Source of the DNA: Tetradesmus obliquus
Lineage: Eukaryota > Chlorophyta > Chlorophyceae > Sphaeropleales > Scenedesmaceae
Reading direction: 5' to 3'
Assembly (NCBI GenBank): GCA_030272155.1
Contig: CP126196.1
Span: 3,782,001-3,846,000 of the forward strand
Length of the DNA: 64,000 nucleotides
The notes below the pieces were generated by a model. It did no database searches and had not been told where the DNA came from. It saw only the letters and a program-made list of their open reading frames with translations. The position numbers were made by a program, and so were the translations under genes. Positions 2,330-61,600 of this stretch are shown piece after piece; position 1 is the first letter of the stretch; every line of letters starts with the position of its first letter.

Positions 2330-2480
2330 AGCGCATCACAAGAGCAGGCCTAGCCGTGCAGCCAGGCCAGCCATAATGTGCCCCTCTTGGTCTAACCAGC
2401 TGTCTCTTCAGTACCTGCAGCAGCAGGCGGAGGCACACCTGCCCGCCAACCGTCCCACATCTGCTCATGCAATGGCGGTG
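2330..2480 (-). repeat. extra copy of the last coding segment of the gamma-tubulin complex gene
   Basis: About 330 bases past the real stop at 2666 the sequence encoding the last residues (AGLAARLGLLL and a stop) reappears around 2337-2383, followed by a diverged copy of the preceding exon sequence up to about 2480. It lies outside the gene model and is best read as a tandem duplicate of the terminal exon. Confidence 0.75.
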
Positions 2481-2665
2481 TGTGTGTCACCCATAAATGA
2501 TGTACAGGCAGCAGCAGCGCACCGCGGCAGCAGCGTGCACTTGCCAGCTGGTCATCCATGCCAGCGCATCACAGATACCAGTTACCAAAGTGGGGCCACA
2601 GGCCCACCCACTAAGGAGCCAGACAAGGCTCACAATCACGCTTTGGATTTCAGAACAAGTGAACA

Positions 2666-5568
2666 TCACAGGAGCAGGCCCAGCCGTGCAGCCAGGCCAG
2701 CCATGGAGTGGCCCACCTGCCCTGCCCTGCTGCCTGCCAGCTGCCTCTTCAGTGACAGCAGCAGCCCCTCTAGCCCAGCACCAGCAGCAGCACAGCCCTG
2801 CCACGACCCCTCATGCTGCAGCAGCAGCTGCGCCAAGCAGCCGGCGCTGACACCCTCCCTGCATGCGCCAGTAGAGGCAGTGCTGCTGCTGCTGCTGCTG
2901 CTGCTGGTGTCTGGGGTGAGCGACAGCAGCTGCTGCACCTGCTGCTGCAACTGCCATGCCGCAGCAATCAGTCGATACACTGTACCTGCCAGCTGGCTGT
3001 GCCCCGTGCTGCTGCTAACCTTCTCCTTGTCTTGCTGCTGCTGCAGTGGCAGCAGGCACACCTGCTGTGCAGCCGCCAGCAGCCTGTCATGTGCTGCAAT
3101 GATGGCTGGCAGGCTCACTGGCTGGGCACTGACTGCTGCCTCAAACTCAGCCCACAGCTGACCTGACAGGTCACTCAGCATGCCGCCAAGCACACTGGCC
3201 ACACAATTAAGTGCCATGGCGTGCCAGCGCCGCAGCTGCTGCAGCCGCAACATGTCTGCTGCTGCTGCTGCTGGTGCTTGTGCTTCTGCTGCATCATCTT
3301 GCTGCGACTGCCGCCGGTTGATGGGGATTCTTAGACTGCTGCTGCTGCTGCCCCTACCTGTCCTTGGTGCGTCAGTCCTGCTGCTGGCCGCACCCTGCCT
3401 GCTGCTGCTGCTGCTGCTGCTCCTGCCAGCTCGGCTGTTGAGTGCTGCCCACTGGCTGGTGAGCTGCTGCTGCAGCCGCCGCAGCCGCAGCAGCACGCTG
3501 AACACTGCCGCATACTGCTGCAGCTGCTGCTCGCCAGCTAACAAGTTGACAGGCCAGGGCACCTCATAGGTCAACACAAATGCATCTGTGGCTGCCTCAG
3601 GGGCGTGCTGCAGTGTGTTGCTGCTGCTGCTGCTGCTGCTCCAGCCAGGTAGAGTCCTGTCAGGGTCGACCTGCATGGCAGCAGACGCATGTTTCTTCAA
3701 TATGTGCCGCAGTGTTGCTGACTGCACTTTACACAGCATACAAGGCTGAGCACTCTGCACACCAGAACAACAAGCACTCTGCAGAAGCCAGTGACTGCGC
3801 AGCAAGTCAACGAAACGCGCAGAGCGAGAGCGGCACTACAGGTACGCTATGTTGTTGAACCAATTGCATGCCGCAGCTACATCCTTATTTTAGTTTAAAA
3901 CTCTACATCCGCAGCTCTCACCGTCATGCTCATGCGCTCAGCATCAGGCTGGCCAGCCAGGCAGCTCTGCTGCACCGCCGACTCCAGCATCAGCTGCACA
4001 GCAACCGGCGACAGCCGCACCGCACTATTTGCTGCTGCTGCTGCTGCTGCTGCATTGTCCGGCGCAAACATGAGCTGCTGCTGCTGCTGCTGCTGAAGTG
4101 CCTCGAGCAGCAGGTCCACCCAGTCGCCCTGCTGCTGGAAGAACAGTGCCTGCAGGGAGGCCAGCCGCTGCAGCAGGCTCTGGTCCTGCAGGGCAGAGCC
4201 AGCAGCGGAAACACCAGCAACACGAGGAGTTGTAAGGTAGTGAAAGGCGGTGACAGCGCAAGGCAGGCGCAAGCGAATGATGCCAGCCGCTGCAGCAGGC
4301 GCTGGTCCTGGAGGGCAGGGGCAGCAGCGCAAACAACAGAACACGAGCAATTGTAAGGTAGTGAGAGGCGGTGACAGCGCAAGGCAGGCGCAAGCGAATG
4401 ATGCCAGCCACTGCAGCAGGCGCTGGTCCTGCAGGGCAGGGACAGCAAGAAGAAGCGATACAATGGAGTGACAGCACGCGGCGGTGAGCACAAGGTAGGA
4501 ACAAGCTATGACAGGGTAAGGCTAGGTAAGACAGCAAGCCGCACAGCGCTAGGTTGCTGGCACCAAAAGCCTCTGCACGTCTGCAGCAGAAGCAGTTGGT
4601 GCTGTCGTGCTCACCTGCAGCAGCAGCTGCCAGCAGGCCAGCGTTGTCAGGCGGTGCTGTGCCAGCAGCGGCCACACCACCAGCACCTCCAGCATAGTGA
4701 TGAGGGGGGCGCTGCTGTCCGCAGCATCTGCACCCTCAGCCTGCTGCTGCTGCTGCTGCTGTGCTTGCAGCTCTTGGGGCTGGAGCTGGTACCCTCTGCT
4801 GGTGCCGTTGGTGACAGCTACAGACACTGGCAGCACTGCATGCGACGCATCCGCTGCTGCTGCTGCTGCTGCTTCATCAGCATCATCCATAAGCTGCAGC
4901 AGCACATCCTCCTGTGTTACGGTGTATGCACCATAGCCAGATGCTGCTGCTGCTGCTGTGGCAGTGCTTGCGCCCGCAACTTGAGACAGCAGCAGCGGCC
5001 CATGCTGCCCCATGCTGCTCTGCCGCTGCTGCCGGTACATGCCATGCTGCTGCTGCTGCTGCAATAGGCCTTGTGTCATGTCACTTGTTATAACAGTGTC
5101 AGCTTGCTCTGGGCCCCAGGAGGCAGCCCTTCTGTGCAGCTGCCGCTGCGCTGAGGGCAGCCCTGCTGCGGGTGTTGGATAAACAGGCGGACCCCACTTG
5201 CTCCGCTGCTGCTGCTGCTGTTGCTGCTGCTGATGGTGTTGCTGCAGCAGCTCACTGGCTGAAGGCCTGCGGTTTCCAAACCCTAAACCGCCCCCGCTGC
5301 CAGCTGCACCATGTGCTGCTGGTGTGGGTGAGCTGGGGCGGCTCCTAGGGCTTGTGAGGGTTGAACCCTGACCCGCCAAAACCCTGGGTTTTGAATTTGA
5401 ACGGCGGCCGGCGGCTGGCAGCGCTGCTGGGTTAACTGCTGATGCTGCTCTTGAGCCGATTATGGCCAGTGGTGGCACTTTGGCTGCTGCTGAGGCAGCT
5501 CCTGCAGCAGGGGTGGGGTCTACAGGTGCACCCCAAGTTGGGCGCTTGTGACCTGCAGCTGCCTTGCC

Positions 5569-5601
<33 letters not shown>

Positions 5602-8600
5602 ATGTTCAGCGTCTGCACCATCAGCAGGTGCTTCCTGCTCCCACTCCTGCTGCTGCAGTGCACTGGTATCAGCTGCTCTGCCAGAACCTTCGCCACCAGT
5701 GGCAGTAGCAAACTCAGCCGTCAGCCTGGCTGCAGCAGCAAACGGTGAGCTGGGAGGAACCAGCTCTGCTGCTGCTGCGCATGCCTCGTTTGCATTGGCC
5801 CCTTCTGCAGCTGCACGAACCGCTGCTGCTGCTGGTTCAGCTGGTTCTGCTGCTGCTGCTGTAGCTGCACGAGCCGCGTTCTCAGTCTGCAGCACACGCT
5901 GCGTCACAAATGCCGGTAAGTCCAGGCCCGCCCTTGCTGCCCGTGCTGCCTCCAGCTGCAGCAGCTGCAGTGCATTCTTGTGCTCTGCAGCAGCAGACTG
6001 AGCCAGCAGCGACCGCTCAAGTGCAAGCTCCTGCTGCTTGGTGCTGCGCCGCCTGCAGAGCAGATGATGAAAGGCAGGCAGGCAAAGCAACAAGCGAGAA
6101 CGAAGTTGGGGTTCAGGATACCACATCAGCTGAGCGTGTAGGCAGGAGTGCTTGCTTGCAAGCACATGGCCTCTTCCAATGCATAGCCTGCCCAATGCAT
6201 GACACAAGAACATGGTGACACGCGCTCAATTGACAGCATCAAGCAATCATTGTCTATGCTGTGGCATGTTTGCTGCTCTTCCTCCGGAATTCCAACAACA
6301 TATGCACACCTTGCAGCTGCCACTGCCAGCTCCTCCTGCTGCTGCAGCAGCAGCTGCCGCTGCCGCTGCCGCTTGCGCGCTGCCACGCTCTGCTGCAGCT
6401 GCAGTCGCTGCTGCTCCGCTGCTGCCTTGTCCAGCTGCCTGCAACGCATCATAAGAAAAGAACAGGGAAGCAGAGCAGTGCATTCTAAGAAGGTCAGCAT
6501 CGTCACATGCCATTCTGCACTCAGTGAGGACAGTTGTGTAACATATGCCACAAGAGCATTGCTGCTGCAAGTCAACATCATGCGCCGCAGCTTAGCAAAT
6601 CTTCTCACCTGCTGGTCAGCCAGACTTGCGCTGCTGCTGCTGTTCACCACCACTAAAAAGTGTGCTGCAGTTCAGTGCGTGCACCTGACATGCTCAACCT
6701 CTCACCTAATAGCCAGCCAGGCTTGAGCTGCTGCATCGCCAGCTGCGCGAGCAGCAGCCAGGCTGCTGACCACCTTGGCCAGCTCCAGCTGCCTGGCTGC
6801 CTCAAAGTCCGACACCACAGCAGCAGCCTGAGGGCAGAAAAACGGCAGAGGGGATAAGCAGCAGCGTCAGAGTCGGTTGAGCAGTGGGTGACTGGTCTAC
6901 GTGATGAGAGTTAAATATTGCAGCTAGCTCAGCTGCCTGGCTGCCTCAAAGTCCGACACCACAGCAGCAGCCTAAGGGCAAGACAGCGGCAGAGGTGACA
7001 AGCCGTAGGGCACATAACGAAGCAGGGACCAGCAGTGCCGAACTGAAGTGTGTAGGATGCAGTCAGCCCCAGTTGGCTCGCTGCCACAAACTGTGAACGC
7101 TGCTGTAATAAAGCATAGGGGCAACAGATACCCCATCAGCCTAATGCACACCTATCAAAGAAGGAAACCTGTGTAAGCTATGCCTGCTCTGCACACACGT
7201 CAAAATAATACTCACGTGCTTCAGCTGCCGCATGCTCAGGCTGAATGGAACGTAGACCCTGCCCTCCTGCCCACCAAGACCAGCAGCACCTCCGCCAAAC
7301 CCTCCTCCTGCTGCTGCTGCTGCTGCTGCCGCATCTTGCATGCCACCCAAGCAAGCAGCAGTAGCAGCCAAGCCTCCCCCACCCAGCAGTAGATGCAGCC
7401 CACTATCCCCAGCCACATTGTGCCTGCTATCTCCTGGTGCTGCTGCTGCTTCTGGCCCCATAGCTGCATCTCCGCAAGCCATCCTGTTGCCCCTGCTGCC
7501 ACCCTCAGCAAACTCAGCACCCTTGCTGCTGCTGCTGCTGCCAGCCAGCAGCTCCCTCAGCTCCTCATGCTCCAGCTCAGCCAGCCACCCCAGCCGCTCC
7601 GCAAGCTGCTGCCCCGGACCACCCAGCAGCTGCAGCAGCTGCAGCTGCAGCCCTGCCACAACAGCCGCCTCTCTCACACCACCCAGGAAAGAAGGGCAGG
7701 TAGGGGCCCTGCTTTGAGCAGCCTGCCAGGCCTGCAGCAGCAGCGAGGATGATGCGGCCTGCACTGCACGGTCGTTACTGCCGCTGCTGCTGCTGTTGCT
7801 GCCTGCAGTGCGGCTGGGGTGCGGCTGCCGCATCTTATAGCTGCTACTGCTAGTAAAGCGACTGCCAAACCCGGCTTGTGCTGTCGAGGGATTTGTTGTG
7901 AGGGCAGCAGCAGCAGCAGCACCAGCAGTGCATGCCCAGCTGCTGCTGCTGCCCGATGCCACGCTGCTCATGGCAGCAGCAGCAGCAGCGGTTTCTGCCG
8001 CATGCAGCTCTGGCTGGAAGGCCCATGTGAGGATGGTGTGCAGCTGCGGCTGCAGCGCTGCTGCAAACAGGTGCCGCAGCAGTGGCGCTGTCTGCGGCCC
8101 TGCATGCAGCAGGCCTGCAGCACAAGACCAGGCAAGGTAGGTGTGGGGCAGTGAGCAGCACACGAGTATGTCATTGCAGCGGCAGGATGTGAAACCATAC
8201 CATTCATGCAGCAGGCCAAAGCACACAAGCGTGGCATGCAAGGAGGCGCTGGCGCTGTCTGCGCCCCTGCATGCAGCAGCCCTGCAGCACATCAGAATGC
8301 ACGGCAAGCAGGGGACATCAAGCAACAACAGACTTATATGTCAGTACTGAGCAGTGTGTGCGAGGACACTTCACAAGCAGGCCACGCAGGCCAAAGCACA
8401 TGAAGCACGGGGGCATGCAGAAAGCCTGTAGAACAAGAACAGGCGAGATATGTGTGGGGCAGTGAGCAGCACATCAGTATAACAGTGCCGCAGCAGGATT
8501 TGCAACAACGATATACATGCAACAGGCCAAAGCACAGGACCACGTAAGGCAGGGGGCAGCCAGGGGCCACGCAGCTCACCATTGTCTCAATCCTGCAGCA

Positions 8601-10610
8601 GCGTCCTGCGCTGGCACCATAGCCATTACCAAACAACATGCGTGTGCTCTGCTTGACATGCATCCAGGAACGGCTGTCCTAGACTCAACAACTGCACATA
8701 CAGCCCAGGTCTAATATAACACACCAGCACCACCAACAGCAGCAGCAGCAGCAGCACCACCACCACCACCACCACCAGCAACAGCAGTGCTCACCTTCAT
8801 ACAGGCACTCCAGCACTGCAGCACCCCCCATGAAGCCCCGCAGCAGCTGCCACCTGCCGGGGTCCCAGCCCCAGCAGTCAGCAGCGCATCACAAAGCAAC
8901 AAGCTTGCTGTTCTGCCGCACACCAAACCGAGTGTGGCTGTTCCAGCACCAACCGCTGCACACAACCCCAGCCTATTTTATGATCGCAAACCAGCACCAC
9001 CACCACCAAAACCACCATAACCAGCAGCAGCAGCAGCAGCAGCAGCACCACCACCAGCACTCACCTTCATACAGGCACTCCAGCACTGCAGCACCACCCA
9101 TGAAGCCCTGCAGCAGCTGCCACCTGCTGGGGTCCCAGCCCCAGCAGTCAGCAGCGCATCACAAAGCAACAAGCTTGCTGTTCTGCCGCACACCAAACCG
9201 AGTGTGGCTGTTCCAGCACCAACCGCTGCACACAACCCCAGCCTATTTCATGATCGCAAACCAGCACCACCACCACCAAAACCACCATAACCAGCAGCAG
9301 CAGCAGCAGCACCACCACCAGCACTCACCTTCATACAGGCACTCCAGCAATGCAGCACCACCCATGAAGCCCTGCAGCAGCTGCCACCTGCTAGGGTCCC
9401 AGCCCCAGCAGTCAGCAGCGCATCACAAAGCAACAAGCTTGCTGTTCTGCCGCACACCAAACCGAGTGTGGCTGTTCCAGCACCAACCGCTGCACACAAT
9501 CCCAGCCTAATTCATGATCGCAAACCAGCACCACCACCACCAAAACCACCATAACCAGCAGCAGCAGCAGCAGCAGCACCACCACCACCAGCACTCACCT
9601 TCATACAGGCACTCCAGCAATGCAGCACCACCCATGAAGCCCTGCAGCAGCTGCCACCTGCTAGGGTCCCAGCCCCAGCAGTCAGCAGCGCATCACGTAG
9701 CAACAAGCTTGCTGTTCTGCAGCACAGCAAACCAGGTGTGGCTGTTCCAGCACCAACCGCTGCGCACAATCCCAGCCCTACTCAACAGCACAGAACACCA
9801 CCACCACCACCACAACAGCAACAGCAGTGCTCACCTTCATACAAGCACTCCAGCAATGCAGCACCCCCCATGAAGCCCCGCAGCAGCTGCCACCTGCTAG
9901 GATCCCAGCCCCAGCAGTCAGCATACGCTGCTGCTGCTGCTCCTGGCCAGGGCAGTGCAGCAGCTCTCGCTTTCTCCGCAGCAGCCCGCGCCTCAGCAGC
10001 AGCAGCGGCAGCTAGGTGCCCTGCCGAAGCAGCAGCAGCAGCTTTAAAGCCTGCTGCAGCAGCAGCGCTGGCGATAGCATCATTGGCGCTGCTGCTGGGC
10101 TTGGTCCTGCTTGATCTGAGTATCAGCAGCCGCTCTGTTGTCGTCCTGCAAGCAGCACCAGCATCTGTGCTGCTGCTGCTGCTTGTTGAGGTGGCAGCAG
10201 TTGCTGGCAAGCGGACCCCTGCTTGTGGGTCTATTGCAGTGCCATCTGCTGCGATGCATGGCGTGCACCAGCAGCACAGTGCCAGCTGCTGCAACTGCTC
10301 CCGCATGCTGCGCAGTTGCGCCACTAGCTGCAGCAGCGTCATACCAGGCGGCGGAGCAGCTGCACACCCTGCTGCTGCTGCTGCTGCTGCCAGCTGCTTG
10401 CTGCGCTGCTGCTGCTGGTACAGCAGCAGCTGCATTGCTGCGTCGTGCATGTCCAAAACCTCATTGACTGCTGACAGGAACGCCTGCAGCACCGGCTGAC
10501 TGCTGACGTCATTATCAAAGCCACCCTCCCCCTCACTACCAGCGTTCTCCAGCTGTTCCGCAGCGCCATTAGCATCATTGGCACTGCTGCTGTTGCTGCT
10601 GCCCTGCAGG

Positions 10611-10651
<41 letters not shown>

Positions 10652-13023
10652 TGCAAAGTGCTGCAGGAAGGCCTGCAGCCGCAGCCGCAGCTCAGCAATG
10701 TGCAGAACTTGAGCCAGCAGCTGCTGCTGCGCTGGGGAGCGGGCCAGGCCTACCAGCCTGCAGGAGACGTGAGGTGTGACACAGTTTGCGGACATCAGGA
10801 CATACATGCAGCTGTGAGAAACATGTTTCTGCACAAGAGACGCTGCAAACCAACTCAATAATTGAAAGAAGGCATGCAGGCTGCATGCACTCGCCACAAC
10901 AATAGTAGCCCAAGCAGCCCTAGTAGCCCAGGGCATGAAACTGACTGGCACGTGCGCACCTGTTGCTGCTGCTGGCCTCCGGGGGCGCTGCTGCCATGCC
11001 CCACAGCTGCCCCACAGCCGACCACACACCCTGCACTGCCAGGCAGCTGAGCGACACAAGCTCCGTCTCTGCTGCTGCCCTGGCCGCAGAGGGCGGTGCA
11101 GCCACAGCAGCAGCAGCGGCGCAGTTTGCAGCTGTAGCTCCTCTTGCTCTGGCTGGGATCAACAGCTTGCTGCTGCTGTTGCACGATTCGGCGCTGGCTT
11201 TGAGGCCTTGTCGCTGATCATGTGCAGGTGCATCACGGGCTGTTGGCACGGCATCCAGCTGCTGCTGCTGCTGCTGACTTGGCAGCATGTGTGCTGCTCC
11301 TGATCCCACCTCTGCTGCTGACAGCATCATCAGCGGCAGTACACCCGAGCGCTGGGCAGCAGCCGACGCGACTGCCGCTGCAGCATCTGCTGCTGCCTGC
11401 GTTACATCCTGGTCTTTGCTGCTGCTAACCATGCTGTGGTGGGCTTTCCTGCCGCCCTGGTCGCTGCCGCTGCTGCTAGCAGCAGTATCACTGGCTGCAG
11501 CTGCATCCGCTGCCAGGCCTAATGGCCGCAGCAGATGCGGCTGTGAGGCCAGCTGCAGCTGTTTTGTGAGGCAGTCTACCATCGGCTGCATTGCCAAAGT
11601 GCTGCTTTTGGGTTTCTCTGCATGGCTAGACTTGCAGGCATCTGCGGCAGCATCCAGGGGCATCTGCTCCAGCAGCTGTGTTGCAGCAGCTGCTGTACTG
11701 AGCCAGGTGCCAGCTGCAGCTGCCTGCTGCTGCTCCTGCAAGTGCTCTGCCAGGCGCCGCAAACCTGCAGCCACATTGTGCGTCTCCTGCAGCTGCTGCT
11801 GCTCCTTTGGCTGTAGCTTCTCTTGTGCAACTGCCGCTGTACGTTTCTGCTGCTGCACAGTTTTGGTTGCATCTGCTTGCTCAAGCCAGCTCAGCTGCCA
11901 AGCGGCACTCGCACCCCAGCTCTGCGGACCTGCTGCTGCTGCTGCCACAGCTGCTGCCGCGCGCTGCTGCACTGCTGCAAGTGTGCTGCTGCCAAGCGCT
12001 GGCAGTGCTGTCAAAGTGGGCTGGGGTTCTGGCGCTGATCCTTGCAGTGCAAACAGCACTGACAGCACTGCCTGGTGCTCTTTGAGGGGAGCTGGGCTTG
12101 GTATGTCATCAAAGTCTTGTGGGACCCCTGGTGCCCAAGGCTGGTAGTGGTCGATGCTGCAGAGTGTACACATACATATGGGGAGTTTCAGGGTTAGCAG
12201 TGCCTGTATCTGTATGGAGTTGCTTTATGACATGCGACTATGCAGGCTGGGTGGCTTGTGCTACCGCATGAGCTGCAATATGCATCAGCCAGGGGGATTG
12301 TTGGGGAGCAGGTGTTTCTGCAACTGCTGTTGGTGGTAAGCCAGCTGCTGCTGCTGTTGCTGCTGCATATGCTGATGCTGATGCCAAAGCTTCAGCTGCT
12401 CACCCTTGCCACTGCTGCAGCAGCTCCCCCAGGCGGGTGGCTTCTGCACACCGCAAATTCTGCTGCAAGTCCAGGCATGCCTGCGATTTCAAGGACACAC
12501 ACCCTGAAGACCTGGCAAATTCGTGGCTTTTCAGACACAACCTTCAAGTTTTGTAGCCGTCAGAGCTTTGAAAAAAAGCAATAGTGCAGCGGGTGGCGTG
12601 TAGGTGTGTGACACGCATGCTGCAGCAGCGCTGCAACCAAGTCCAGCGCACCTGTGCAGCTGCAATCCTGTTATGCTGCTCCCTGTCTGGCACATCCTGC
12701 AGCACCTGCAAAAAAAAGGTAACTATAACGAATCCTGCAACAAATTCTATGCTTGTACCACCTATCCTTGCTCTGCCATACCACATGGCAGGATGCAAAT
12801 AAGGCTGTACCATCCTACTGCTGCTGTGCTCTTTCCCCACCTCCGATGTGTCTGCGGCATCCAGATCCAGCAGAACAGCCCAGGCTTTGCTCAACAGACG
12901 TGAGCAGTTGTTACGGCCGCATCCAGCTGCTACTTGCTGCACCACACCACGCAGAGCTGTTCTGACATTGAGTTCTGGCGCGTGCAGGTTGGCGTGCCGT
13001 TGATCCTGGGTACAGGATTCCAT
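2666..13023 (-). CDS. gamma-tubulin complex component, GCP5/GCP6 type (Spc97/Spc98 family)
   Basis: This is a subunit of the gamma-tubulin ring complex that nucleates microtubules at centrosome-like sites. The model has eleven exons (minus): 13023-12841, 12705-12652, 12462-12404, 12156-10960, 10757-9835, 8114-7216, 6827-6706, 6438-6310, 6052-4615, 4185-3922 and 3670-2666. All phases match and the sum is 6273 nt, 2090 aa. Family signatures are APLLRHLFAAALQPQL and ILTWAF (about 815-840), PSFLGGVREAAVVAG (about 945), VVWPLLAQHRL (about 1650), LQALFFQQQGDW (about 1675) and, in the C-terminal domain, LTYEVPWPVNLL (about 1790) and LRRWHAMAL (about 1915). A long Ala/Gln/Ser-rich insert with a coiled coil (about 1106-1270) separates the two halves, as in GCP6, which is why I favour GCP6 over GCP5. 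The first exon and start are the least certain part. Several introns contain copies of exon edges. Confidence 0.88.
4180..4445 (-). repeat. triple acceptor/exon-start array of the GCP gene
   Basis: The sequence around the acceptor at 4185 (CTGCAG, then DQSLLQRLASL in the exon) recurs at about 4302 and 4423, giving three units with a 121-122 base period. The middle copy reads CTCCAG and the outer copy CTGCAG at the acceptor. The outer copies lose the continuation of the exon and diverge into intron. Confidence 0.85.
6607..6640 (-). repeat. downstream copy of an exon 3' edge with donor (GCP exon 7)
   Basis: The end of the exon at 6706 (encoding QAWLAI, then GTGAGA) has a diverged copy here encoding QVWLTS followed by the same donor, GTGAGA. 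A stop lies just upstream in the same frame. It sits in the intron after exon 7. Confidence 0.65.
6920..6985 (-). repeat. upstream copy of an exon 5' edge with acceptor (GCP exon 7)
   Basis: About 60 bases that match the first half of the exon starting at 6827 (AAAVVSDFEAARQL) are repeated here, including a usable acceptor (CCCTTAG). The copy runs into a TAG soon after the shared part, so it would not serve as a full exon. Confidence 0.8.
8115..8560 (-). repeat. intronic tandem duplication upstream of GCP exon 6
   Basis: The exon start at 8114 (LLHAGPQ) has a partial copy at about 8262-8290 behind a similar acceptor. The intron stretch 8132-8240 is repeated, diverged, at about 8440-8540, roughly 308 bases away. 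No alternative exon can be completed here. Confidence 0.65.
8791..9834 (-). repeat. four tandem copies of the 3' edge of GCP exon 5
   Basis: The last 90 or so bases of the exon ending at 9835 (encoding RWQLLRGFMGGA and LECLYE, then GTGAGC) plus about 150 bases of intron are repeated with donor positions near 8791, 9061, 9325 and 9595, in addition to the real one at 9835. Periods are 236 to 270 bases. In every copy the exon frame stays open and the donor is kept. CAG and CAC triplet tracts of differing length separate the units. His- and Gln-rich open frames seen on the plus strand here are shadows of this array. Confidence 0.92.
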
Positions 13024-14791
13024 TATTTAATGATGCTACATAATAGTATAGAAATGATGTTTCTGCTTATTGTGCCTAGTGGATGTTGCTGGGTGCGGGT
13101 ACGCTACGGCGAATTCAAATTTAGCTGTGTCACAAGCCACGACAGCTTCAACAATAGACTTTAAATGGCAGTTCAAAGCAATCGTGGGTCCTGTCATGGT
13201 ACCGTGCTTAGCTGTCAGTCACATGTCAGTCTCTGCTGTTCAAACGTGCAACCAGACCACGCGCAACCTTGCAATGTGTCCTGTAACTTTTGTGGGTTCC
13301 CACTGCACTTCAACTTCATAATGCTGCAAGCAAAGCATACTCTGAAGCATGGAGTGGTTGGAAGTATGCGAATCACGGATGCTGCTCTATTAACAGCTCC
13401 ACACTACAGCTCCTCTAGAGCAGCACCAGTTGTGCAAAAGCACGTGTTGCAACAAGACTTTACTTCGGTCACTTCGCGCTCCTTAGGGCTGTATGTGCTG
13501 CTGGGACAAGATGCAGCCCTGCTTGCACAACACTGTTGCTGTGTGACTCACTGTGCTGCACTGTGGCACATGTCGGACATGCCACTGCATGGCAACGACT
13601 GCCTGCCAATTAACTGGGTCCAAAGTGCTGCTCAACGTCCACAGCGTATGGCTGCAATGCACAAAATGCCTCAGGGCACAACTGTCAGGTATGTCACCAC
13701 TGGTGCCGCTGAGCGGCTGGTCACCAGTGCACTGGGCCACCCAATGACTTGAAGGATTGCACCAAGCGCTGGGTAAATCCTGAAGGCGTGCTGCAACTTG
13801 CAATGACGTTCGATTGCATGTTGCACGCCGTGCCAGGCAGGCCATCGTTTGACAGCACTTGAGCTCATGGCACTGGTGTGAAATGCACTTGTGGATTTCT
13901 GCCTATGTGGAAGCAGCGGAACAGTTGGTGAAAATACAGCCTCAAGTATCAGCGAGTGTGTTACACATGGCGGCATGAATCCAAGCAGGGCTTAGTTGGC
14001 CATGCTGGAGCTCATGGCACTGCAGTGCAGCTGCATGATGTGTGAGCAGGTGGGAAAGCTTGGCCCTGAGTGACACTTGCTCTCAGGGCCAAAATCTAAT
14101 CATGCTGCAGCATATATGATTGACAAGCAACCGAACATTGCGTTGGCCTGATTGTGCTGCCGATCGCGAGCTGGTGTCGTCATCGACGCTGCCAGGTTGA
14201 GGCGAGACGTCTCGCCTAATCTGTTACCCAAGTTGCATTGTAATGCCTTGCACATAAACATAAAGGATATTTGTTGCTAGGATCCTGCTGATTGTATTAG
14301 CAACGCGTTTCAACTCTAATCTGTCACAGATTACAGTGTGAAGCAGCTGCAGCATTTTTTCGCCCCTTCGACAGGAGAAACATCAGTGAGTGCAGGGAAG
14401 ATAACAAAGCAGACTGAGCTTCACTACACAGATAATTAACGTGCATCAAGGATTGTCTGCTCATGCTGCGCTGTCGGGCATGATCAGGCTGGGTAAATAA
14501 ACTGCAGCCTGCTGCACTGCAGGCCTGAGGCCTAAACCATCCCTACTGTAGCTAGTACCGTACATGCAGTGGTTGCATTGTCATATAATGCACAGCAATG
14601 ATATCCCATGCTCATTGATGTACTCCCTGCTGCTCCAGCAATTACATGTGAACTCCCTTGCGCGATTTAATGCCTGGGTCCTGACAAGCACTCCCGCCTG
14701 GCTAGTGAGCTCAACTGGCTGCATCTGCCACTCTTCTTTATTGCAATAACACATCCAGCAGCTGCATTTCTATCTATCTGCAGCAACAGCC
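13024..14791. promoter_or_regulatory. divergent intergenic region between the GCP and P450 genes
   Basis: No gene is recognised in these 1.8 kb. The two flanking genes are transcribed away from each other, so both promoters should lie here. Composition is less triplet-rich than in the genes. The only discrete element I can support is the perfect palindrome at 14210-14227. No convincing TATA box could be assigned. Confidence 0.5.
14210..14227. promoter_or_regulatory. 18-base perfect palindrome between divergent genes
   Basis: AGGCGAGACGTCTCGCCT is its own reverse complement over 18 bases. It contains an ACGT core of the kind bound by plant bZIP factors. It lies about 565 bases upstream of the P450 start. 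A role as a binding site is inference from position and symmetry only. Confidence 0.4.
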
Positions 14792-44618: not shown

Positions 44619-44661
<43 letters not shown>

Positions 44662-47788: not shown

Positions 47789-48342
47789 TCAGCCGAAGAT
47801 GCTGCCCCAGAAGTTGTTGTTGTTGTTGTTGCGGTTTTGGCGGGTCGCAGCCCTGGGAGGTGGTGCTGCTGCTGCCTGCCGAGCCTCTTGCTGCACACTG
47901 CTGCTGCTGGTGGGCATGCGTGCGTACGGCTGAGGTTCCTGCGAGTAAAAGTTGCCAAGCTGTGCCTCCTGCTCATTGAGCCTCTTGTACTCCATTGCAG
48001 CAAACTCCGGACCTTTGGCCGCGAGCGTCTGCGCAGCAATCACCTTGATGTTGTGCCTTGCAATCTGCTTGACCATGTTTGCGTCGCGGTATGTGCCCTG
48101 TGCAGTGCTTGAGTCCGGGTACAGCCCAAACAGGTCCCAGCTGGCCATGCCCCACACGAAGACGTCGCAGATCATGTAGGTTTTGATGGTAGGGTTTGCC
48201 AGCCACTCAAGGGTTCTGTTGTAAAACTCGGTGCGGTAGGCCTGCAGGGAGGGTATCTGCCAGGGGTCGGTTGAGGGGCTGTAAAAGCCTGCCACGCCTG
48301 CCCAGGGCTGCTTGCCCACCATGCGCGCGCTCACGGCAGGCT

Positions 48343-48382
<40 letters not shown>

Positions 48383-49786: not shown

Positions 49787-49823
<37 letters not shown>

Positions 49824-51747: not shown

Positions 51748-53640
51748 GCTTGCTCGGTCAACAAGCGATGGCAGCTGCGCTGGAGCGTCCTCTGCAGGCC
51801 TATGGTCAGGAGCGCGGCAGCAAACCGTCCACAGCAACACCGGTGAGCTCTAGCCACAGCTTTAGAGTAAAACGTTTGGATCCTTGCTGTGTTACCGATG
51901 AATGGAGCAGGAAAAGCCCGCTGTCGCAAGAATGAATTAACCAAGCCCGGCTACCGCGATTGCAAGAAGACCACAACGAAAGCCATGCTACGGAGATAAA
52001 ACTACACCAATATGGCTGATTAAAGATTTAAGCGTGTCCTGCACCAGCTGCTGCTTTGTTTCAGCTCTCACCTCCTGGTCCCACAGTGACTCGCTGGTGA
52101 CACTGCTGTTCCCGGCCCCGAAGCCCAATGAATATGTATCTTTCGTACTATATTTGACACTGGCAGTCAATGCTTGGCACTGGTGCACCTCGCTGCTGAA
52201 CGTTAGGGAGAGCTCGAGCCGGCGTTGGAATGCTCAGCAGTCGCCGCTGAAGGTGCACTTGTAATGTTGAATCAATGAATAGTGACCAAGAGTTGCATAC
52301 GAGCAAGCGGGGGCTACATGAACAGGCGATCGTGTGTCACTTAAGCAACAAAGAAATTCAACAGCCACAGCCGACGGGACCTGACAACCATGAGTTTAAC
52401 GCTCGAAGTCCAGGCCATTGTCTCGCGTACTTATCTACAAGCAAATGAGGGCCAGCTCTTGAATGCGCGGGAAAGCCGGCAGCAGCTTCAGGCTGCGTAA
52501 GCAGGCAGCTTCCCTTTGAATTTGATCACAAGCAGCTATTACCGAGGGCAGGGCATCTGCAGTAGCCACCTGATACGTCACAGCTCTGCATCAGCTGCAT
52601 TCTTGCAGCGCACCAAGCTGCCACAAGGTGCAAACACAGCCAACCAGCCGCTGTGACTCTCAGCCTGAGAGCAAGGGTCTGTTCTGCTCCACTCTGAATC
52701 AGAGTCTCTGATCCCAAACAGGCAACAAGGCAGAGTCATCAATATCAAGTCTTGCTGCATGTAGGTGGTGCATGGCAGCTACTTGCAGCTGACACAGCTG
52801 CTGACACTGCAGCCTGTGGGCAGCCCACATGCTGCACTGTGACACTGCGTCCCACACATGCCATGCTCCTGCTCTCACCTTGACCAATGGCACAGCAGCC
52901 TTTAGCCAAGCCAGTTGCATGTAATCTTGACACAGCAGCTCTGCCACCCACACTGCTGCGCTGTGACCTGAGGTCCACGCGCCCAGGGGTTGGTAATGCC
53001 AATCCCCTGCTCTGATAGTTGAATCAAGCAACAGCAGCTGCCAGCGAGCCAATGCGTGCATAACGTGCATGTTGGCTGGAACTACAGCTCTGCGCTGTGC
53101 CCACACTGCTGCACAGTGGCACTGCGTCCCACGGCCCCATGGCACGAGGACGCAAATTTGCCATGCAACGGGACACATTCAAAAAGTAAAATGCATGGTT
53201 GCAGTCTATTATTTGAAAACCCATAGCACTGCGTCCTGCGGCCTTCACATGGCATGCGTCCCACGCCACCCATAGCAGGCACTGATGTGTGCAAATCTGT
53301 CACATGCTGTGCTGGAAAGATTCAGCACTGCAGACACGCACAGGTCAGGTGACTGCGTCGCAGCACACTACTCGAGTGTAGTACACACCATGGCACAAGC
53401 ATGCGCAGCAGCGGCACCCTGCATCTGCTGCTGGCACTCCCTGCAAGACGTGGCACAGTGCAGCAGATCAACCAGCTCAAGCAAGGGACTTGTCCTGGCA
53501 TCACATGCTGCGGGCGGTGGCAGCTGTCGACTACACTGTCAACTCACAGCTGACACCCTCCACCTGAAACTACTGCAAGTCAGGACCGCACTCCAGATAC
53601 AGTCTTGCAGCAGTCACTACAGTTGCTGCACTAGCCGATC
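51748..53640. other. 1.9 kb upstream of the glycoside-hydrolase-like gene, no gene seen
   Basis: A minus-strand frame at 52188-52075 ends WDQE|GTGAGA and could be a small exon, but nothing joins to it. Between about 52830 and 53275 the phrase CACTGCGTCC recurs several times with diverged flanks, suggesting an old tandem repeat. Confidence 0.4.
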
Positions 53641-53644
53641 TCCC

Positions 53645-54200
53645 CTGCAACACTTCACTCGACGCGTACACCGTGCGAGCGCAGCGACTTGATCAGAGCC
53701 CAAACCTTGCCCGTACTGCTGCTGCTGCTGCTGCTGCTTGTGCTGCTATTGCTGTGGCAGGTGCTGCTGCTGCCGCTGCTGCTGCTGCGATGGCGGCGGC
53801 AGCTGCTGGCATCCTACAACACCTCCTGTCAGGACCTGGCGTGCCGCATATCAAGCATGCACTTGAGCAGCTACATCTGTTCACTTCACATGCAGGCCGT
53901 GCAAGCGCAGCGACTCAATCAGCGCCCGCAGCTTGCCCTGCAGCAGCAACCCGTACTGCTGGTGGTGGTGGTGCTGCTGCTGCTGCTGCTGCTGCTGTGC
54001 TGCACCTGCTGCTTGCATCCTACTGACTTTCCCACAGGAGCTGCTGTGGCGCATGCCAAACACGCTCCGTGCTTGTGCAGCTGGCACTGACGCAGCAGAC
54101 CGCTCCATAATGCAATCGTGCTGTCAACAGCTGACCGCTTCACACGCAGGCCGTGTGAGCGCAGCGACTCAATCAGCGCAAGCAGCTTGCCCTGGTGGCG
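53645..54200 (-). repeat. three extra tandem copies of the uL18 terminal exon end
   Basis: The end of the ribosomal protein gene (GKLRALIESLRSHGLRVK and stop, at 54359) is copied at about 54128-54190, 53883-53945 and 53650-53705, with a period of about 231-245 bases and decreasing similarity. Triplet tracts separate the units. Confidence 0.92.
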
Positions 54201-54358
54201 CAGCTGCTTGTGGTTGCTGCTGCTGCTGCTGCCACATGCTGCGCTGCTGCCGCCGCTGCTGCGGCAGCTGCTTACATCCTACAAACTATACTGCAGGAGC
54301 TGCTGTGGTGCGCGCCAAACATGCTCCTCAGTTTGGCAGCTGTCACCAGCAAAGCAGA

Positions 54359-54925
54359 TCACTTCACGCGCAGGCCGTGTGAGCGCAGGCTTTCAATCAG
54401 TGCCCGCAGCTTGCCCTGGTAGCGCAGCTGCTTGTGGTTGCTGAAGTGCACCTCTTCTACGTTTGCTGCTTTGGCCTTTTCAGCGAGCAGCTTGCCCACC
54501 AGCACACTGGCCTTCATGTCACAGGCCGACTGCTGCTGCTGTTCAAGCGCCTGCAGCAGGAGGAGCAGCGGCAGCCAGCAGCCGGAATGCAACATCAGTG
54601 ACGCTGGCAATGGTAGTGTTTTGGATTGCAGGCGTGAGCTTGTGTGCTTGGGGGTGTTCGACTGCTGTGGTGCTGCTGCGTGTGGCTGGATGTCTGGCTG
54701 CAGCGTGTTTTGTGCTTGTGATTGATCCTACTGGCGATCACTGCTTCAAACACAGTTCACATCACTTGCAATCCACCCACCTGCCGGATGTTCCGTTGCA
54801 GAGTGGATGCTGCTGCCACATAATGGCCGCCGTCTGAGGGGTTGGCCTTGTGCAAGATGGAGGCGTACGTGTAGCGGTTAGAAAGAAACACCTTGAGGTG
54901 ATACGGCCGCCACGCCGCCATGTGC

Positions 54926-54927
<2 letters not shown>
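54359..54927 (-). CDS. ribosomal protein uL18, organellar type (probably mitochondrial)
   Basis: uL18 binds 5S rRNA in the central protuberance of the large ribosomal subunit where 5S is present. Two exons (minus): 54927-54781 and 54550-54359; 339 nt, 112 aa, phase 0 at the junction. The product starts MHMAAWRPYHLKVFLSN, continues RYTYASILHK and YVAAASTLQRNIRQ, and in exon 2 has VLVGKLLAEKAKAANVEEV, HFSNHKQLRYQGKLRAL and ESLRSHGLRVK. These match the beta-strand, AAST and YHGR-like segments of uL18. The length fits the bacterial/organellar form. The RPYHLKVF start resembles plant mitochondrial members more than plastid ones, but no separate transit peptide is present. The 5' leader holds a CAG tract directly before the ATG. 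Confidence 0.85.

Positions 54928-54980
<53 letters not shown>
54928..54980. repeat. CAG tract (sense) directly upstream of the uL18 start codon
   Basis: About sixteen triplets with one interruption lie between the 5' leader and the ATG of the uL18 gene. Confidence 0.9.
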
Positions 54981-54982
<2 letters not shown>

Positions 54983-55188
54983 GTGGTGGTGGTGCGTTGC
55001 TGCTGCGTGTACTGCTGCGGCAGCGGGCCGCACCAGCTGCTGACGACGTGCGACTGCTGCTGGTGCTGCTAGCGCCAGTGCTGCGGCTGCAAGTGCTGCT
55101 CAGCCACTGCAAGAAACGGAGAGGGTGTTGTGGGAGCTGCTCTGTATCCGTAAAGGCCTGCAGGAGGCAAGCAGGGGCAACAGAGGTT

Positions 55189-55223
<35 letters not shown>

Positions 55224-55984
55224 TGTTCCCTGCTGCGAGATGTAACCGGGTGTCTTCCCGCCCACCGTAAGCTTTGTCACAGCTTTGCTTTTGCACAGTT
55301 GACAGCGAGTCACAGCTGAAAAAGCACGGCTCAGTGCCTACCTGGGCCTCGCCGATCCAGAATGCCCAGTCCTGGAGCAAGGTTTGTCAAACCTATTACT
55401 ACAAACGTTTTTAGACGAGATTGATTTGCTCGATTTGTGAGTTGGTGACGGATATGGGACTGTGGACGCAGTAGTGCGACGCAGCAGAACAGCTCACAGG
55501 CAAACACAGTTGAGAGCTACACAACACAACTGCTATTCACAACGTCGAATTCAAACCTGTGGTTTCACACAGTTCAGCGCATGATCGCCCGTTCTGCAGG
55601 AGTGAAACAGCTGCAGTAACATTGAACCGCTACAGCCTGTTGTAGCTGTGTTACACAGCAGGGTCCCTGTTCAGCATAGCAGCAAGCACCGCTGGCGTCT
55701 TCACTGCGGTGAGAGTGAACTAGTGCACCACACTTCAGCTGCTGCAAGTACATCGCCACACCATGCTGCGGCAACCCACCACACATGTGTCGCTTGTATC
55801 TCGATATATGCAAGTGTTCTTGCAATGTGGTGCATACAATGTGGCTATCCTGCACAACACAACAGTGCCAAACATCCAATTCCCTGCAAACCACAATGCC
55901 CGGCCATCCACTTCCAGCACGTGCCGCATTCCTGCACATGCCACGTGGCATGCCATGCCAGCAGTGCTACATGCCACGTCAGCG
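54981..55984. other. 1 kb with no gene seen
   Basis: A minus-strand segment near 55377-55341 encodes LLQDWAFWIGEAQ followed by GTAGGC. It could be an isolated exon but cannot be joined to a neighbour. A CAG tract lies at about 55192-55222. Confidence 0.35.
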
Positions 55985-55987
55985 CTG

Positions 55988-56035
55988 CCCCAGGTATGCC
56001 CCAGGTATGCCTCCACCAGCTGCTGCAGTGCAGTC
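55988..56035 (-). repeat. distal copy of the transporter's C-terminal codons
   Basis: Encodes LQQLVEAYLG, matching the end of the amino-acid transporter (VQQLVEAYLGQ). The last four codons are themselves duplicated (AYLGAYLG). Confidence 0.75.
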
Positions 56036-56229
56036 TGCCAGTTGGGGCATCGTTCAATGTACATGTGCACGCATGCATGCCGTGATGTTTCCCTGCTGCA
56101 CAACTCCCGCCCAATGGGCGGCAGTGCCGCGTCAGCGCTGCTAGCTGCTGCATTGCAGCCTACCACGAAACAGCATACAATGCGCATGCATGCAGCGATG
56201 TAAAATGACGAATTCTAGACAAAGCCAGG

Positions 56230-56770
56230 ATTCAAAGGACGCTGGTCATGCACAGCTGCGCAGCTTCAATCACATTTTGGAAGTTACAAGAGTAACCTCG
56301 TCCGTTGGGGAGCCAATGACAGGCTCATTGGGCAGAGAAAAACGGCAAACTCAACCAGTCCGTTTTTAAAAGGAAAGACACTACCAAATCTCATCCTGAA
56401 AATCGTCGCACATAAGATCACATAACGGTTCCTGGTGACGTTCATCAATCAAGTGCACCAAGTGTGCAACTGCACTTTGCTTCTCATGGTTCATCAGTCT
56501 GTGCATACACGCAGGGTTGTTGGGACCACCAGTGTCCTGATACAAGCGTCTGAATCGCTCACATATATCATAATACCAATAGCATTCAAACATGACATGC
56601 TTCTCATCTTCAACGCGAGACCCTACACACCTGGGGCATAGGCGGTCACTCCGTTGCACACCACGCCATCGGCCCTTTGACACCTCCAGATGATGCACCC
56701 CCAACATAATCAAGAGCGGATCTGCCTCCTCTGCACGAACGCCGCACATGCCACATCGCTGCTGCCCCAC
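56230..56770 (-). mobile_element. 5'-truncated non-LTR retrotransposon (LINE) 3' end
   Basis: The minus-strand frame 56770-56381 has the Cys/His-rich tail typical of LINE reverse transcriptases: RLCPRC, then VEDEKHVMFECYWY and ERFRRLY. The catalytic part is missing, so this is a dead 5'-truncated copy. About 150 bases of 3' untranslated sequence seem to follow. It sits between two copies of the transporter's last exon, so insertion postdates or accompanied that duplication. Confidence 0.75.
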
Positions 56771-57001: not shown

Positions 57002-58467
57002 TTACTGCCCCAAGTACGCCTCCACCAGCTGCTGCACAGATGAGAAGATTCCGCAGCCGCTCAGTGCCACCGCCAGCACCAGCAGCACCCAGCAGCTGTA
57101 CATTTCAAACCTCCTCAGCTTCAGCAGCTTGAGTGCAAACAGGCACGGCAGCCCAAACATGCTCATGACGTCACCCAGGCTCGCGATTACTGCCATGACG
57201 ATCGAGAAAAAGGGCAGCGTGTATGCAATGGCGGCTGAGACGACAATGCATAACAAAGTGACGGCTAGCCACAGGCTGCGCTTGCTCCAGCCCTCCGTGT
57301 GGTGGTGTGACAGCTCCTGGGCATACCTGGGGGACAGCAGGTTACAGCAGCAGCAGCAGCAGCAGCGGCAGTGACGCCAGCAGCAGCAGCATAGTGGATG
57401 CTACATGTGTGGTGGTGCGACAGCTGCTGGGCATACCTGGGTCACAGCAGGTCACAGCAGCAGCAGCAGCAGCAGCAGAGTGGATAGTATCGGTGTCATG
57501 CGTGGCGATGACCTGCCCTTGCAGTGTTCGAAGGTACACAGCTCACTTGCTTTCTGCGCAGTAATGAGGCAGCAGAATCAGCAGCACCAACAGCACCACC
57601 ACCAGCAGCAACGACGGAGGCATCAAATTGAAACAGAGGTTGTGGCAGGTATGTTGACCAGAGTGCATCACCCTCTTACGATTGTTGACCAGAGTGCATC
57701 ACCCTCTTATGATTGTTGACCAGAGTGCATCACCCTCTTATGATTGTTGACCAGAGTGCATCACCCTCTTATGATTGTTGACCAGAGTGCATCACCCTCT
57801 TATGATTGTTGACCAGAGTGCATCACCCTCTTATGATTGTTGACCAGAGTGCATCACCCTCTTATGATTGTTGACCAGAGTGCATCACCCTCTTAAGATT
57901 GTTGACCAGAGTGCATCACCCTCTTATGATTGTTCAGCGCTCACTTGGCCAGCTGCAGGCTACATTACTAAAAACAAGTCTCCCTGCACATGACTGCTGC
58001 TACAAGTCTCCCTGCACATGACTGCTGCTACAAGTCTCCCTGCACATGACTGCTGCTACAAGTCTCCCTGCACATGACTGCTGCTACAAGTCTCCCTGCA
58101 CATGACTGCTGCTACAAGTCTCCCTGCACATGACTGCTGCTACAAGTCTCCCTGCACATGACTGCTGCTACAAGTCTCCCTGCACATGACTGCTGCTACA
58201 AGTCTCCCTGCACATGACTGCTGCTACTACATTGAGTTCTTTTCTGCCGTTTCTTCTGGCGGCTTGGACGATGACGATGTTTCCTCCCCCTATGAGCCTC
58301 TCGTTGGCTCCTGACTGGGGTTCCCACTCCTCGTTGAGTGGAGCATGTAATGTGTAATGTAATGTGTAATGTAATGTGATGCTCACTTGGGGTTGGTCAG
58401 CTGCAGCAGCAGGCTGCACCACACGTTGACGTTGACCTGGTACGCGATGACGCAGTGCAGGAAGATG

Positions 58468-58601: not shown

Positions 58602-58635
<34 letters not shown>

Positions 58636-61600
58636 GCAGCAGCATGACCTAAGCACTGCATAAGCACTGCAGGGTGCTGCACAGCAGATTGCAGCTTGGG
58701 CAGCCGAAACAATTGGCGGCTTGGCAGCAGCTGCAGCTTCCTCAGGACATCCTCATATGTACACACACACCTGCATTCATGATGACGCTCCACATGTCTT
58801 GCCCTACAACAGATGAAATGGGCCTGCAGGCAGGCACAGGCAGTGTTGTGCTTGAGCGTTCAATCATTGCTGCTCGCGCCTGGCATTACAGCAGCTACGA
58901 TGGATGCAAGGAACTTCTTGAAACACGGATTTTGACTTCTGGCTTGGGTGTAACTCACATCTTCGCAAGACATCCATGCACCTCTGCTGACCTAGCATAG
59001 TGTGACTTTCCTACAGTGCCGAGGTCGCATTGCTGCTTTTGAAGAAGCGCACTTGCATACATTGTGTCTGGCGCAAGTGATTTGGCCAAGCTGTAGACTG
59101 GCTGCAAACCCCCCATCTGCAGATGAGGTGCACACTCATACTTCATATCAATTAATATGAGGTGCACACACATATTACATATCATATCATACCCTCACTT
59201 GTGCACATCGATGCCTGCACCAAACACTGAGTAGCCAGTGACAGAGATGACTAGGTACACACAGGTCATGAACCCTGCGGCCACACGGCAGCAGCAGCAG
59301 CTGTGTTGAGCAGCAATGCCTCAAGAAGTAATGCTTGTTGCGTGGCAACATTGGCGTCGAAACAGCCATTGGCTCCACCCTAATTGTCGGAACTTGCAGT
59401 CAACTGCTCTGCTGCTGTGTCCGCTGCTGTGGGCAACCACATCAGAGCACAGCACAGCACAGCACAGCACATCACCAAACACATGCAGCAACAGTGTCAG
59501 CAACAGATGCCAAACTATGACGTCGCATCGGCCAGGCGCACACCTGTAGTGAGCGATGCTGCTGCTGCAAACTTGTTACGCTGGCGCATGGTGGTGATGT
59601 ATCGCATCCAGTTGATCTGGCCACCAAAGGCAAACGCAATGTCCATGGCACCCACCAGAGCCGACTGCAGCAGCAGCAGCAGCACCAGCACCAGCAGCAG
59701 CACCAGCACCAGCAGTAGTAGTAGTAGTGATAGCAGGAAGAACACAAGCACCAGCATGCGGGATGATTATCATAAGCAGTCAGCGCAAGCTGCGACAGCT
59801 GCCGGTTTGGAGCAGCAACTAGGACGCGTCAGCACCAGCACCGGCGCCTGCAGCACATCGTGCCTTGCGGGAGCAGTGGGCAAATGCACGACATGCCAGC
59901 AGCAAGCTGCTGACGTGCATATGCTGCTCATGCTACTGCTGCTGCTGGCAGCAACGTTCGTAACACGTGTGAACAGAAACAGCTATCGCTTTACGCGTGG
60001 TGGTCACCCAGACGCATGGCAGCGCGATTGACCGCATGTTTGATTAACTCACGTTCAGGCCCTGGCCAGTTGAGATGAGCTCTGTTGGTGCTGCTGGTGG
60101 TGAGGTGGCATAAATGGCTACCAGCTTGCCCACCACCACCACCATCGCCAGCAGCATGCCCACTGTGCCAAAGATTGACACCCAGGCAACGTCTTCGATG
60201 TTGTGCATCTGCAGCATTCCGGCAGCACAAGCTTAGACAAGTCAGACAAGCAGAACGGGAAAGGTGACAAGATGATGTCAACACGCACAGCAGCTGCTGC
60301 TGCCAAAAGTGGACACCCAAGCCACATCCTCAATGTTGCGCATCTGTGCAACGTCCAAAACAGCAGTTGGGCACATGTTGGAGCATATGCTGCTGCTGCT
60401 GCTGCTGCTGCCATTCGACCATGCAGGTCAGGATCGCTTGCTGCACGCCATGCGTGGACCATCATGCTCCAACCCTGCTGGCTGCTGGCCATCGCAACAT
60501 GTGCAATCCTACACAATGTGTGACAGGAGGCGCGGCTCACCCTCAGAAGCCTGCCACACACCCATCTGGGCTAGGCGCACAATGAGCACCTGCTGTTGCT
60601 GCTGCTGCTGCTGCTGCTGTGACGCTGACCAGGGTCTCACCTGGGCCAGGGGCACGATGAGCACTGTCACTATCAGGCAGGCCATCGCCGGGCTGATGTC
60701 GTACATGTAGAACGTCTGCAGCAGCAGCAGTGGCATCACCAGCAGTATTCGGCGTCATCAAGGCACACATAGATTGCTCATGCCAGTGATGCGCAAAAGC
60801 ATGGTACCACCCTGCTGGCAGCCGCTTATGCTGCTGCAGCTGCCGGCAGCAAATGCGCCCACACAGCCAACCAGATCTGCAACTGATCTAGGCTGCAGCA
60901 TAAACATGCTTGGTTTTCACAAACAACCCTCACAGAGCCAGGCTACAGATGAAAAGTAACAAGTGTTACTTTCCGCGTCATATTATTTGCTCACCTGCCG
61001 CAGCGTCTCCATGCACGTGATGTGCAAGATGATCGGCACACAAAAGATTGACGCGTAGATCGTGCCATACACCATTGCACTGCCGGCCGTGCCCAGCGCT
61101 GCTCTCCCGATCTGGTCAAACACCACAGCACCAGGCACCCGCAGTGACAGTCGCTGGTAGAGGCTGCCGGAGTAGGAGCACATCGCCGCAAACCATGCAA
61201 AGATAAGCAGCGCGGGTAGCCAGCCTAGCCGCGCAAAGTCGCCCGGCAGTGAAAGCGTGCTGCGGGTGGGTAGGGTGGGTGGGCAGGGGGCATGAACAGG
61301 GGCTGCGCTTTAGGGGACAGAGCAGGGCTTATGGTCGCTTGTTACATTGGTATGGCAGAAAGCAGGGTAAACGTCAGGGTGTTGCAGGCAGCATGGCAAG
61401 TGGGCTGGGAGCCAGCCCGAGGCGCGCACAGTCGGCTGGGAGGGACGGAGTGTTGTTGGAGATTGATGCGGTGATAGCGGCAGTGCAGTGGGGGCAGTAG
61501 CAAGAGGGTGTAGGGTCTGACAGCAACAGCTGGACCAGCAGTGTCTGTGTACAGTCCCATGCAAGTGCTAGTGCCAGGGTTGCTGCTGCCTCGAGCTTCA

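Follow-up and report, generated by a model that had tools for sequence, protein, structure and literature searches.

Local direct copies of exon edges in Tetradesmus obliquus favour a step of about 115 bp

We identified numerous partial, direct copies of exon edges in a 64-kb stretch of the Tetradesmus obliquus genome (C6:3782001-3846000, referred to below as the window) and in loci sampled from other contigs. A typical copy comprises a splice site together with about 50 nt of exon. It is located on the intron side of the edge that it resembles and, in young pairs, ends sharply at the splice junction. About one third of well-supported exons (82/244 across 19 sources, 34/67 in the window) had such an edge-spanning copy nearby. 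The elementary event is already known from single cases; the density of the copies, their step and their exon-only sharpness did not appear in the literature searched.

The genome contains 104.66 Mb in 17 contigs. Twenty loci of 10 kb, drawn from 16 other contigs, were analyzed together with the window (21 sources), and exon statistics were based on 19 of these (the window and L002-L019), with the repeat-rich L020 and L021 left out. The latter two, on C16 and C17, consisted mostly of long repeats (coverage 0.59 and 1.00). Gene models were predictions of a self-trained HMM, partly hand-edited, whose splice consensus was CAG/GTGAG for donors and cTGCAG/G for acceptors (the slash marks the junction). 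Exons with a coding score of at least 8 and a length of at least 30 bp were considered strong (n=244, including 67 in the window). Pfam analysis of the predicted proteins revealed P450, MORN, sulfotransferase, amino-acid transporter and DnaJ-ferredoxin genes in the window. Two further window models had no Pfam match; one of them was part of the gene apparently labelled GCP in a previous sequence-only reading of this DNA, and that label was not confirmed. Scans of the window for tRNAs and Rfam families gave no matches.

CAG/CTG tracts were numerous in the window, and self-comparison was carried out after masking tracts of period 1-6. At 40 bits or more, all 87 pairs detected in the window were direct, whereas the 20 sampled loci, 18 of which contained at least one direct pair, had 175 direct and 4 inverted pairs; all four inverted pairs were within L021. 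At 34 bits or more and offsets below 2500, the 21 sources contained 280 direct versus 3 inverted pairs, compared to means of 11.7 and 2.7 in three sets of local Markov-3 shuffles. Chance similarity was ruled out by this comparison, and triplet tracts were ruled out as the source of the pairs by their persistence after masking. Thus, the central claim of the sequence-only reading, that exon-edge copies exist, was borne out, and similarity was not limited to triplet tracts, the outcome that it had named as speaking against the claim.

For the 19 sources, expected numbers of pairs were obtained by shifting the exon map circularly 1000 times. Edge-spanning pairs were 1.7-fold enriched (141 versus 84.8 expected, sd 9.5), those without contact to a strong exon occurred at 0.6 of expectation (72 versus 120.7, sd 11.5), and pairs touching an exon but no edge were near expectation (53 versus 60.5, sd 8.4). 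Blastn may overlook offsets below ~50 bp; an independent gapless lag test is free of such a limit. The lag test found 151 edge runs (99.7 expected, sd 14.6), 64 runs touching an exon but no edge (107.4 expected, sd 14.9) and 175 non-exonic runs (182.9 expected, sd 22.3). The tests thus differ as to whether exon interiors are depleted, which was the case in the lag test and not in the blast test. The edge enrichment is real yet moderate, and the duplication process is not limited to exons. Under strict rules, 116 copies remained, of which 62 belonged to acceptor and 54 to donor edges; they came from the window and 12 loci (13 of the 19 sources). The window itself contained 42 distinct, mostly noncoding intervals that copy a predicted exon edge, or 30 under strict rules, fewer than the more than fifty counted previously. 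Each multi-exon window model that corresponds to a gene named in that count had at least one copy, as judged by reading.

Among 184 edge records, 150 covered one edge and 34 a whole exon, and in 131 of the 150 one-edge records the copy was on the intron side, consistent with the earlier observation that acceptor copies lie upstream and donor copies downstream. Copies ended 0-15 bp into the intron in 85 cases versus 18.1 expected (maximum 33 in 500 shifts), whereas mirror ends were rarer than chance (7 versus 17.9). In records of at least 92% identity, the median intronic and exonic parts were 10 and 54 bp for acceptors (n=15) and 5 and 72.5 bp for donors (n=20, seven of which came from two arrays). 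Alignments of records with 70-86% identity, largely array alignments, extended deeper into the intron (medians 34.5 and 65 bp). Alignments of pairs at 88% or more showed exon edges recurring behind differing intron flanks.

A regularity beyond the earlier reading is the preferred step of ~115 bp (about 100-150 bp). The lag spectrum was highest at 110-119 bp, with 3.0 runs per lag compared to 0.3-0.5 at 40-79 bp, and dropped again beyond the peak; a second peak was present at 240-259 bp (near 250 bp), and shuffled sequence had neither. Lags of 100-129 bp were represented by 50 distinct places in 15 of the 19 sources. The 110-119 bp peak was common to edge and non-exonic runs (1.0 and 1.07 per lag at lags 100-129), and for 55 of 74 edges the nearest copy was 95-161 bp away. 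Lagging-strand or nucleosome-scale processes may set this step, which is a guess.

After tandem duplication with step d, homology is expected to extend across all of d. We defined young pairs as at least 92% identical, and gapped pairs as those with homology shorter than 0.9 of d. Overall, 72 of 90 young pairs were gapped. Young edge pairs were gapped in 38 of 48 cases and complete in 10, with a median ratio of copy length to d of about 0.4; among young non-exonic pairs, 8/31 were complete tandem units. The 72 gapped pairs comprised 38 edge, 11 exonic and 23 other pairs, and 18 of these 23 corresponded to weak predicted exons or to two copies of one edge. At least 67/72 were therefore tied to an exon or to one edge, 9 of the 67 through a weak exon alone, and 5/72 were apparently exon-free, one of which (L016 802/1174) looks by eye like a missed exon.

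Intron flanks were compared with controls from other loci, as same-locus controls carry arrays (99th percentile 113.7). Flanks scored above the 95th percentile of these controls for 22 of 48 single-copy edges, where a simulation from exonic divergence expects 92%, for 11 of 26 outermost array copies (92% expected) and for 32 of 42 inner array copies (95% expected). Single and outermost copies together reached 33/74, versus 5% by the control percentile. With a nearer control and array units included, 37/65 acceptor and 36/61 donor pairs exceeded the 95th percentile. Flank homology was also visible by eye in several cases (L012 1477/1343, window 50087/50197, L017 7956/8082). Many founders thus keep flank traces, and those at least began as ordinary duplications. 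Simulated flanks fitted best, among the settings tried, at 2-3 times the one-clock rate. One clock with 0.5 indels per substitution (mean size 10) left 31% of flanks unrecognizable, nearer than one clock with fewer, shorter indels to the observed 55% but still short of it. A higher indel rate could thus by itself account for part of the flank loss. Young single pairs with exonic identity of at least 0.90 (n=21) included none with full flank homology; the highest flank score among them was 72, compared to ~200 for identical flanks. The gapped young pairs and diverged flanks argue against simple tandem duplication: the exonic part is renewed, preserved or specifically copied by something. Repeated tandem duplication across exon-intron borders, the process suggested previously, accordingly holds for local direct duplication, arrays and the spanning of borders, but not for homology over the whole step.

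We propose that border-spanning duplications of ~115 bp are tolerated through the copied splice site and that their exonic part is later kept alike by recombination, a reading to which we give an even chance. Local direct duplications, favouring a step of about 100-150 bp, would be frequent. An event across a border would also copy the splice site, which is why it could be tolerated: one copy would serve as the exon edge and the other would become an intronic, untranslated decoy. Duplications wholly within exons would probably be purged. The exonic parts, being short direct repeats, may then continue to recombine by slippage or gene conversion in which the constrained exon survives as the template, such that the exonic part of the decoy stays exon-like and more units are added, while the intronic parts diverge. 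The outcome would be an exon-anchored micro-array of exon edge, spacer and exon edge, cut sharply at the splice junction. The direct orientation, the step, the sharp boundary of young pairs, the near-neutral decay of the copies, the unequal divergence of exonic and intronic parts and the arrays are findings of this analysis; recombination as the source of the renewal, the purging and the way in which the step arises are inferred. Several points count against this proposal. If plain duplicates were born steadily, some young single pairs with full flanks would be expected, and none was present among the 21. Homology of 35-60 bp is short for gene conversion. Stop-making changes are in deficit, and the third-position ratio of 1.99 is slightly above its estimate of ~1.57 (both discussed below). 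In addition, only the lag test speaks for purging, indels may explain some of the flank loss, and the alignments of 70-86% pairs reach deeper into the intron. A stronger version, exon-anchored concerted evolution, in which a genome-wide duplicator with a ~115-bp step seeds both kinds of edges and exon selection, passed on by recombination, refreshes the decoys, is tentative and less likely than not. If true, exon borders would be micro-arrays that renew themselves and influence both intron length and the supply of splice sites.

Plain recurrent tandem duplication with ordinary decay, in which the exonic part seems sharper as only one copy drifts, would account for direct-only pairs, arrays and partial flank homology. 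It also agrees with the mismatches: where flanks aligned at a score above 32, the flank/exon mismatch ratio was 1.5-1.9, close to the roughly 1.6 expected; by our estimate, flank pairs diverge ~1.6 times faster than exonic pairs under joint duplication because the exon stands nearly still. However, about half of the founder flanks were unrecognizable where 92% should be visible, and the gapped young pairs were almost all exon- or edge-tied, which makes this explanation rather unlikely.

Copying specific to exon edges, such as repair synthesis that uses splice motifs (cTGCAG or CAGGTGAG) as priming sites and carries 30-90 bp of exon into the intron, would give rise to copies without flanks. The excess of junction ends, together with the scarcity of mirror ends, is what it predicts, and copies of 98-100% identity lacking a flank match were indeed found, e.g., 20739-20791 in the window and the outermost copy L003 2627-2685; in addition, the flanks of 15 of 26 outermost copies did not exceed the 95th control percentile. 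Yet the 33/74 single or outermost copies with flank similarity far exceed the 5% expected, and exon-free motifs should also prime, whereas only 5/72 gapped young pairs looked exon-free. We therefore consider edge-specific copying quite unlikely.

Selection on the copies as functional decoys or alternative splice sites would fit their anatomy (a splice site with about 50 nt of exon) and a deficit of stops, and is improbable in view of their decay. Splice dinucleotides were intact in 113/142 copies, in agreement with the earlier remark that splice sites are often preserved; this proportion (0.80) is close to the 0.82 expected from identity. The dinucleotides decay at the copy's own rate, and selection inactivating decoy splice sites was rejected for the same reason. 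In the strict copies, mismatches at the three codon positions amounted to 160/2226, 172/2228 and 329/2221. The corresponding third-position ratio of 1.99 (CI 1.66-2.38) compares with ~1.57, our own rough estimate for the case of a constrained exon and a neutral copy, and the doubling at third positions is roughly what a synonymously drifting exon facing a near-neutral copy would give. Indels were not a multiple of three in 55/61 cases, 37/116 copies had a frameshift in the aligned part, offsets modulo 3 showed no frame preference (43/38/35), and 8/116 copies were readable through, so that neither the frame-keeping offsets nor the open extensions typical of functional alternative splice sites were observed. 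Frameshifts, frame-breaking indels and frame-free offsets reject a coding function for most copies. Stop-making changes accounted for 5/619 mismatches, and in the 116 strict copies stop-making differences were about 3.5 times rarer than neutral (4 versus 14.2 expected, P 0.0015; the neutral expectation was 14.2 with CpG context and 15.6 without). The previous statement that many copies carry stops or frameshifts is thus correct for frameshifts and not for stops, and the deficit leaves a small door open for the use of some copies. By their sequence, most copies look like near-neutral decoys, as had been suggested. An assembly artefact is hardly credible, as the copies are diverged (70-100% identity), variably spaced and present by strict rules in 13/19 sources on different contigs.

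P450 paralogues provided a view of copy turnover. L030 (C3) and L037 (C6) matched the window P450 gene in exons and triplet tracts only, as judged by reading, and both had local copies of exon edges, among them the exon-9 end that is also copied in the window gene. Exon-to-copy identity within a gene (P2, 0.86; P3, 0.74; window P450, 0.76-0.86) was similar to exon-to-exon identity between genes (P1-P2, 0.84; P1-P3, 0.75; P2-P3, 0.68), and some other edges, by eye, had copies in one paralogue that were absent from another. These observations fit turnover, suggesting that copies are frequently born and lost, and are not old and fixed. The exon-9 copies of the three paralogues gave a weakly supported tree (about 77 bp).

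In the window P450 gene (forward strand), the three donor copies previously assigned to exon 9 were found at about 19282, 19387 and 19490 (19277-19567, copies of the end and donor); the predicted exon had overrun its end near 19234 into the first of them. Exon 15995-16097 had two acceptor-edge copies (15771-15939) and a donor-edge copy (16334-16389). Further acceptor-edge copies were those of exon 16817-16966 (16615-16713, with a frameshift), the exon at 19076 (18838-18969), exon 20298-20474 (20098-20216) and the exon at 20977 (20739-20791; 53 bp, 98%, offset 228, flank homology not found). The MORN gene, on the same strand, contained acceptor-edge copies of exons 37024-37110 (36899-36943; 45 bp, 98%) and 37541-37677 (37403-37467) and a donor-edge copy of exon 40843-41035 (41159-41285). 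The MORN exon end at 39822 had copies as claimed, and further copies of the end of this exon (39575-39822) occupied 39895-40538; an 11-bp repeat, CGGCTAGATGA, present 8.6 times at 40027-40121, lies between them. The weakly scored exon 42501-42577 had an acceptor-edge copy at 42242-42314 (forward strand; 73 bp, 95%).

The other window copies listed here are on the reverse strand. Four donor-edge copies, with units 236-270 bp apart, lie behind exon 9835-10757 (8790-9777) and apparently correspond to the four copies once ascribed to "GCP exon 5". Three donor-edge copies of exon 31378-31803 (30690-31302, units about 225-233 bp apart) are accompanied by an acceptor-edge copy at 31894-31942, and an array of donor-edge copies of exon 50750-51222 was found at 50338-50681. 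Exon 49903-50087 had a donor-edge copy (49639-49688) and an acceptor-edge copy (50163-50274) whose exonic part was identical in 35/35 positions and whose intron flank matched in 46/62. The acceptor-edge copy of exon 6706-6827 (6923-7003) was 98% identical in its exonic part and had a diverged intron flank. Copies were also seen around sulfotransferase exons, in line with the earlier description: an acceptor-edge copy (24115-24167) of exon 23844-24017 and a donor-edge copy (24477-24533) of the weakly scored exon 24607-24678. The remaining ones were acceptor-edge copies of exon 146-217 (328-360), exon 3922-4185 (two, steps 122 and 243, 4279-4447), DnaJ-ferredoxin exon 33899-33999 (two, 34090-34255) and amino-acid transporter exon 60053-60208 (60301-60346). 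Such copies put gene finders at risk because they are readily predicted as exons, e.g., in our own models at 50361-50653 and 8795-9641.

Several known systems are related to these copies. Whole tandem exon duplication, including mutually exclusive exons, differs in that a whole exon was spanned in only 34/184 records. Minisatellite arrays grow and are homogenized between direct repeats, features shared by the copies described here; unlike in minisatellites, a working exon edge forms one of the units, and the founder pairs are of the gapped type. In the potato RdRp gene, an intron was gained by tandem duplication across an intron-exon border: the 3' part of the intron and the exon start were directly duplicated and the upstream exonic copy became intron (PMC4974935). 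The copies in T. obliquus are likewise direct and close (280 versus 3; 95-161 bp in 55/74). However, the potato account concerns one gene, whereas here 30-42 copies per 64 kb affect both donor and acceptor edges, with a ~115-bp step, an exonic part far better kept than the intronic one and homology below 0.9 of the step in 38/48 young edge pairs. The earlier view that no named class matches the copies must therefore be narrowed, as such an event has been described for this potato gene; their density was absent from the literature searched, which covered few subscription journals and contained no report of such density, step or sharpness. The AGGT model also involves local direct duplication within genes that copies splice signals, but there an exonic AGGT is duplicated to create a new intron (Rogers 1989, Hellsten 2011, Gao and Lynch 2009, cited in PMC4974935), whereas in T. 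obliquus the copies carry the exon's own acceptor or donor, and both the duplicated splice site and the intron around the copy would have existed beforehand. Introners (PMC9860276) are repeated sequences linked to introns and splice sites that spread into many genes; the copies share the link to introns and splice sites, but are local copies of their own exon and not a dispersed element. Window pairs were near in 110 cases versus 10 far, and a genome search with window regions 36500-56400 and 14000-33900 gave dispersed matches to a few short stretches among the best 39 of 1855 and the best 39 of 508 candidates. If this frequency of copies holds genome-wide, they would provide a natural laboratory for how splicing discriminates true from false sites, and for intron growth, intron gain and the cause of the ~115-bp step.

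Additional repeats were present in the window. Segment 32077-32237, perhaps a fragment of a mobile element, occurred in at least 39 places genome-wide at 80-92% identity, and three short dispersed repeats (56270-56400, 42950-43038 and 16411-16476) had many genome-wide matches. Two adjoining near-perfect minisatellites with unlike units were found at 57652-57934 (31 bp, 9.1 copies) and 57974-58227 (28 bp, 9.1 copies). The start of another predicted gene, which we take to resemble a P-type ATPase, occupies 63129-64000.
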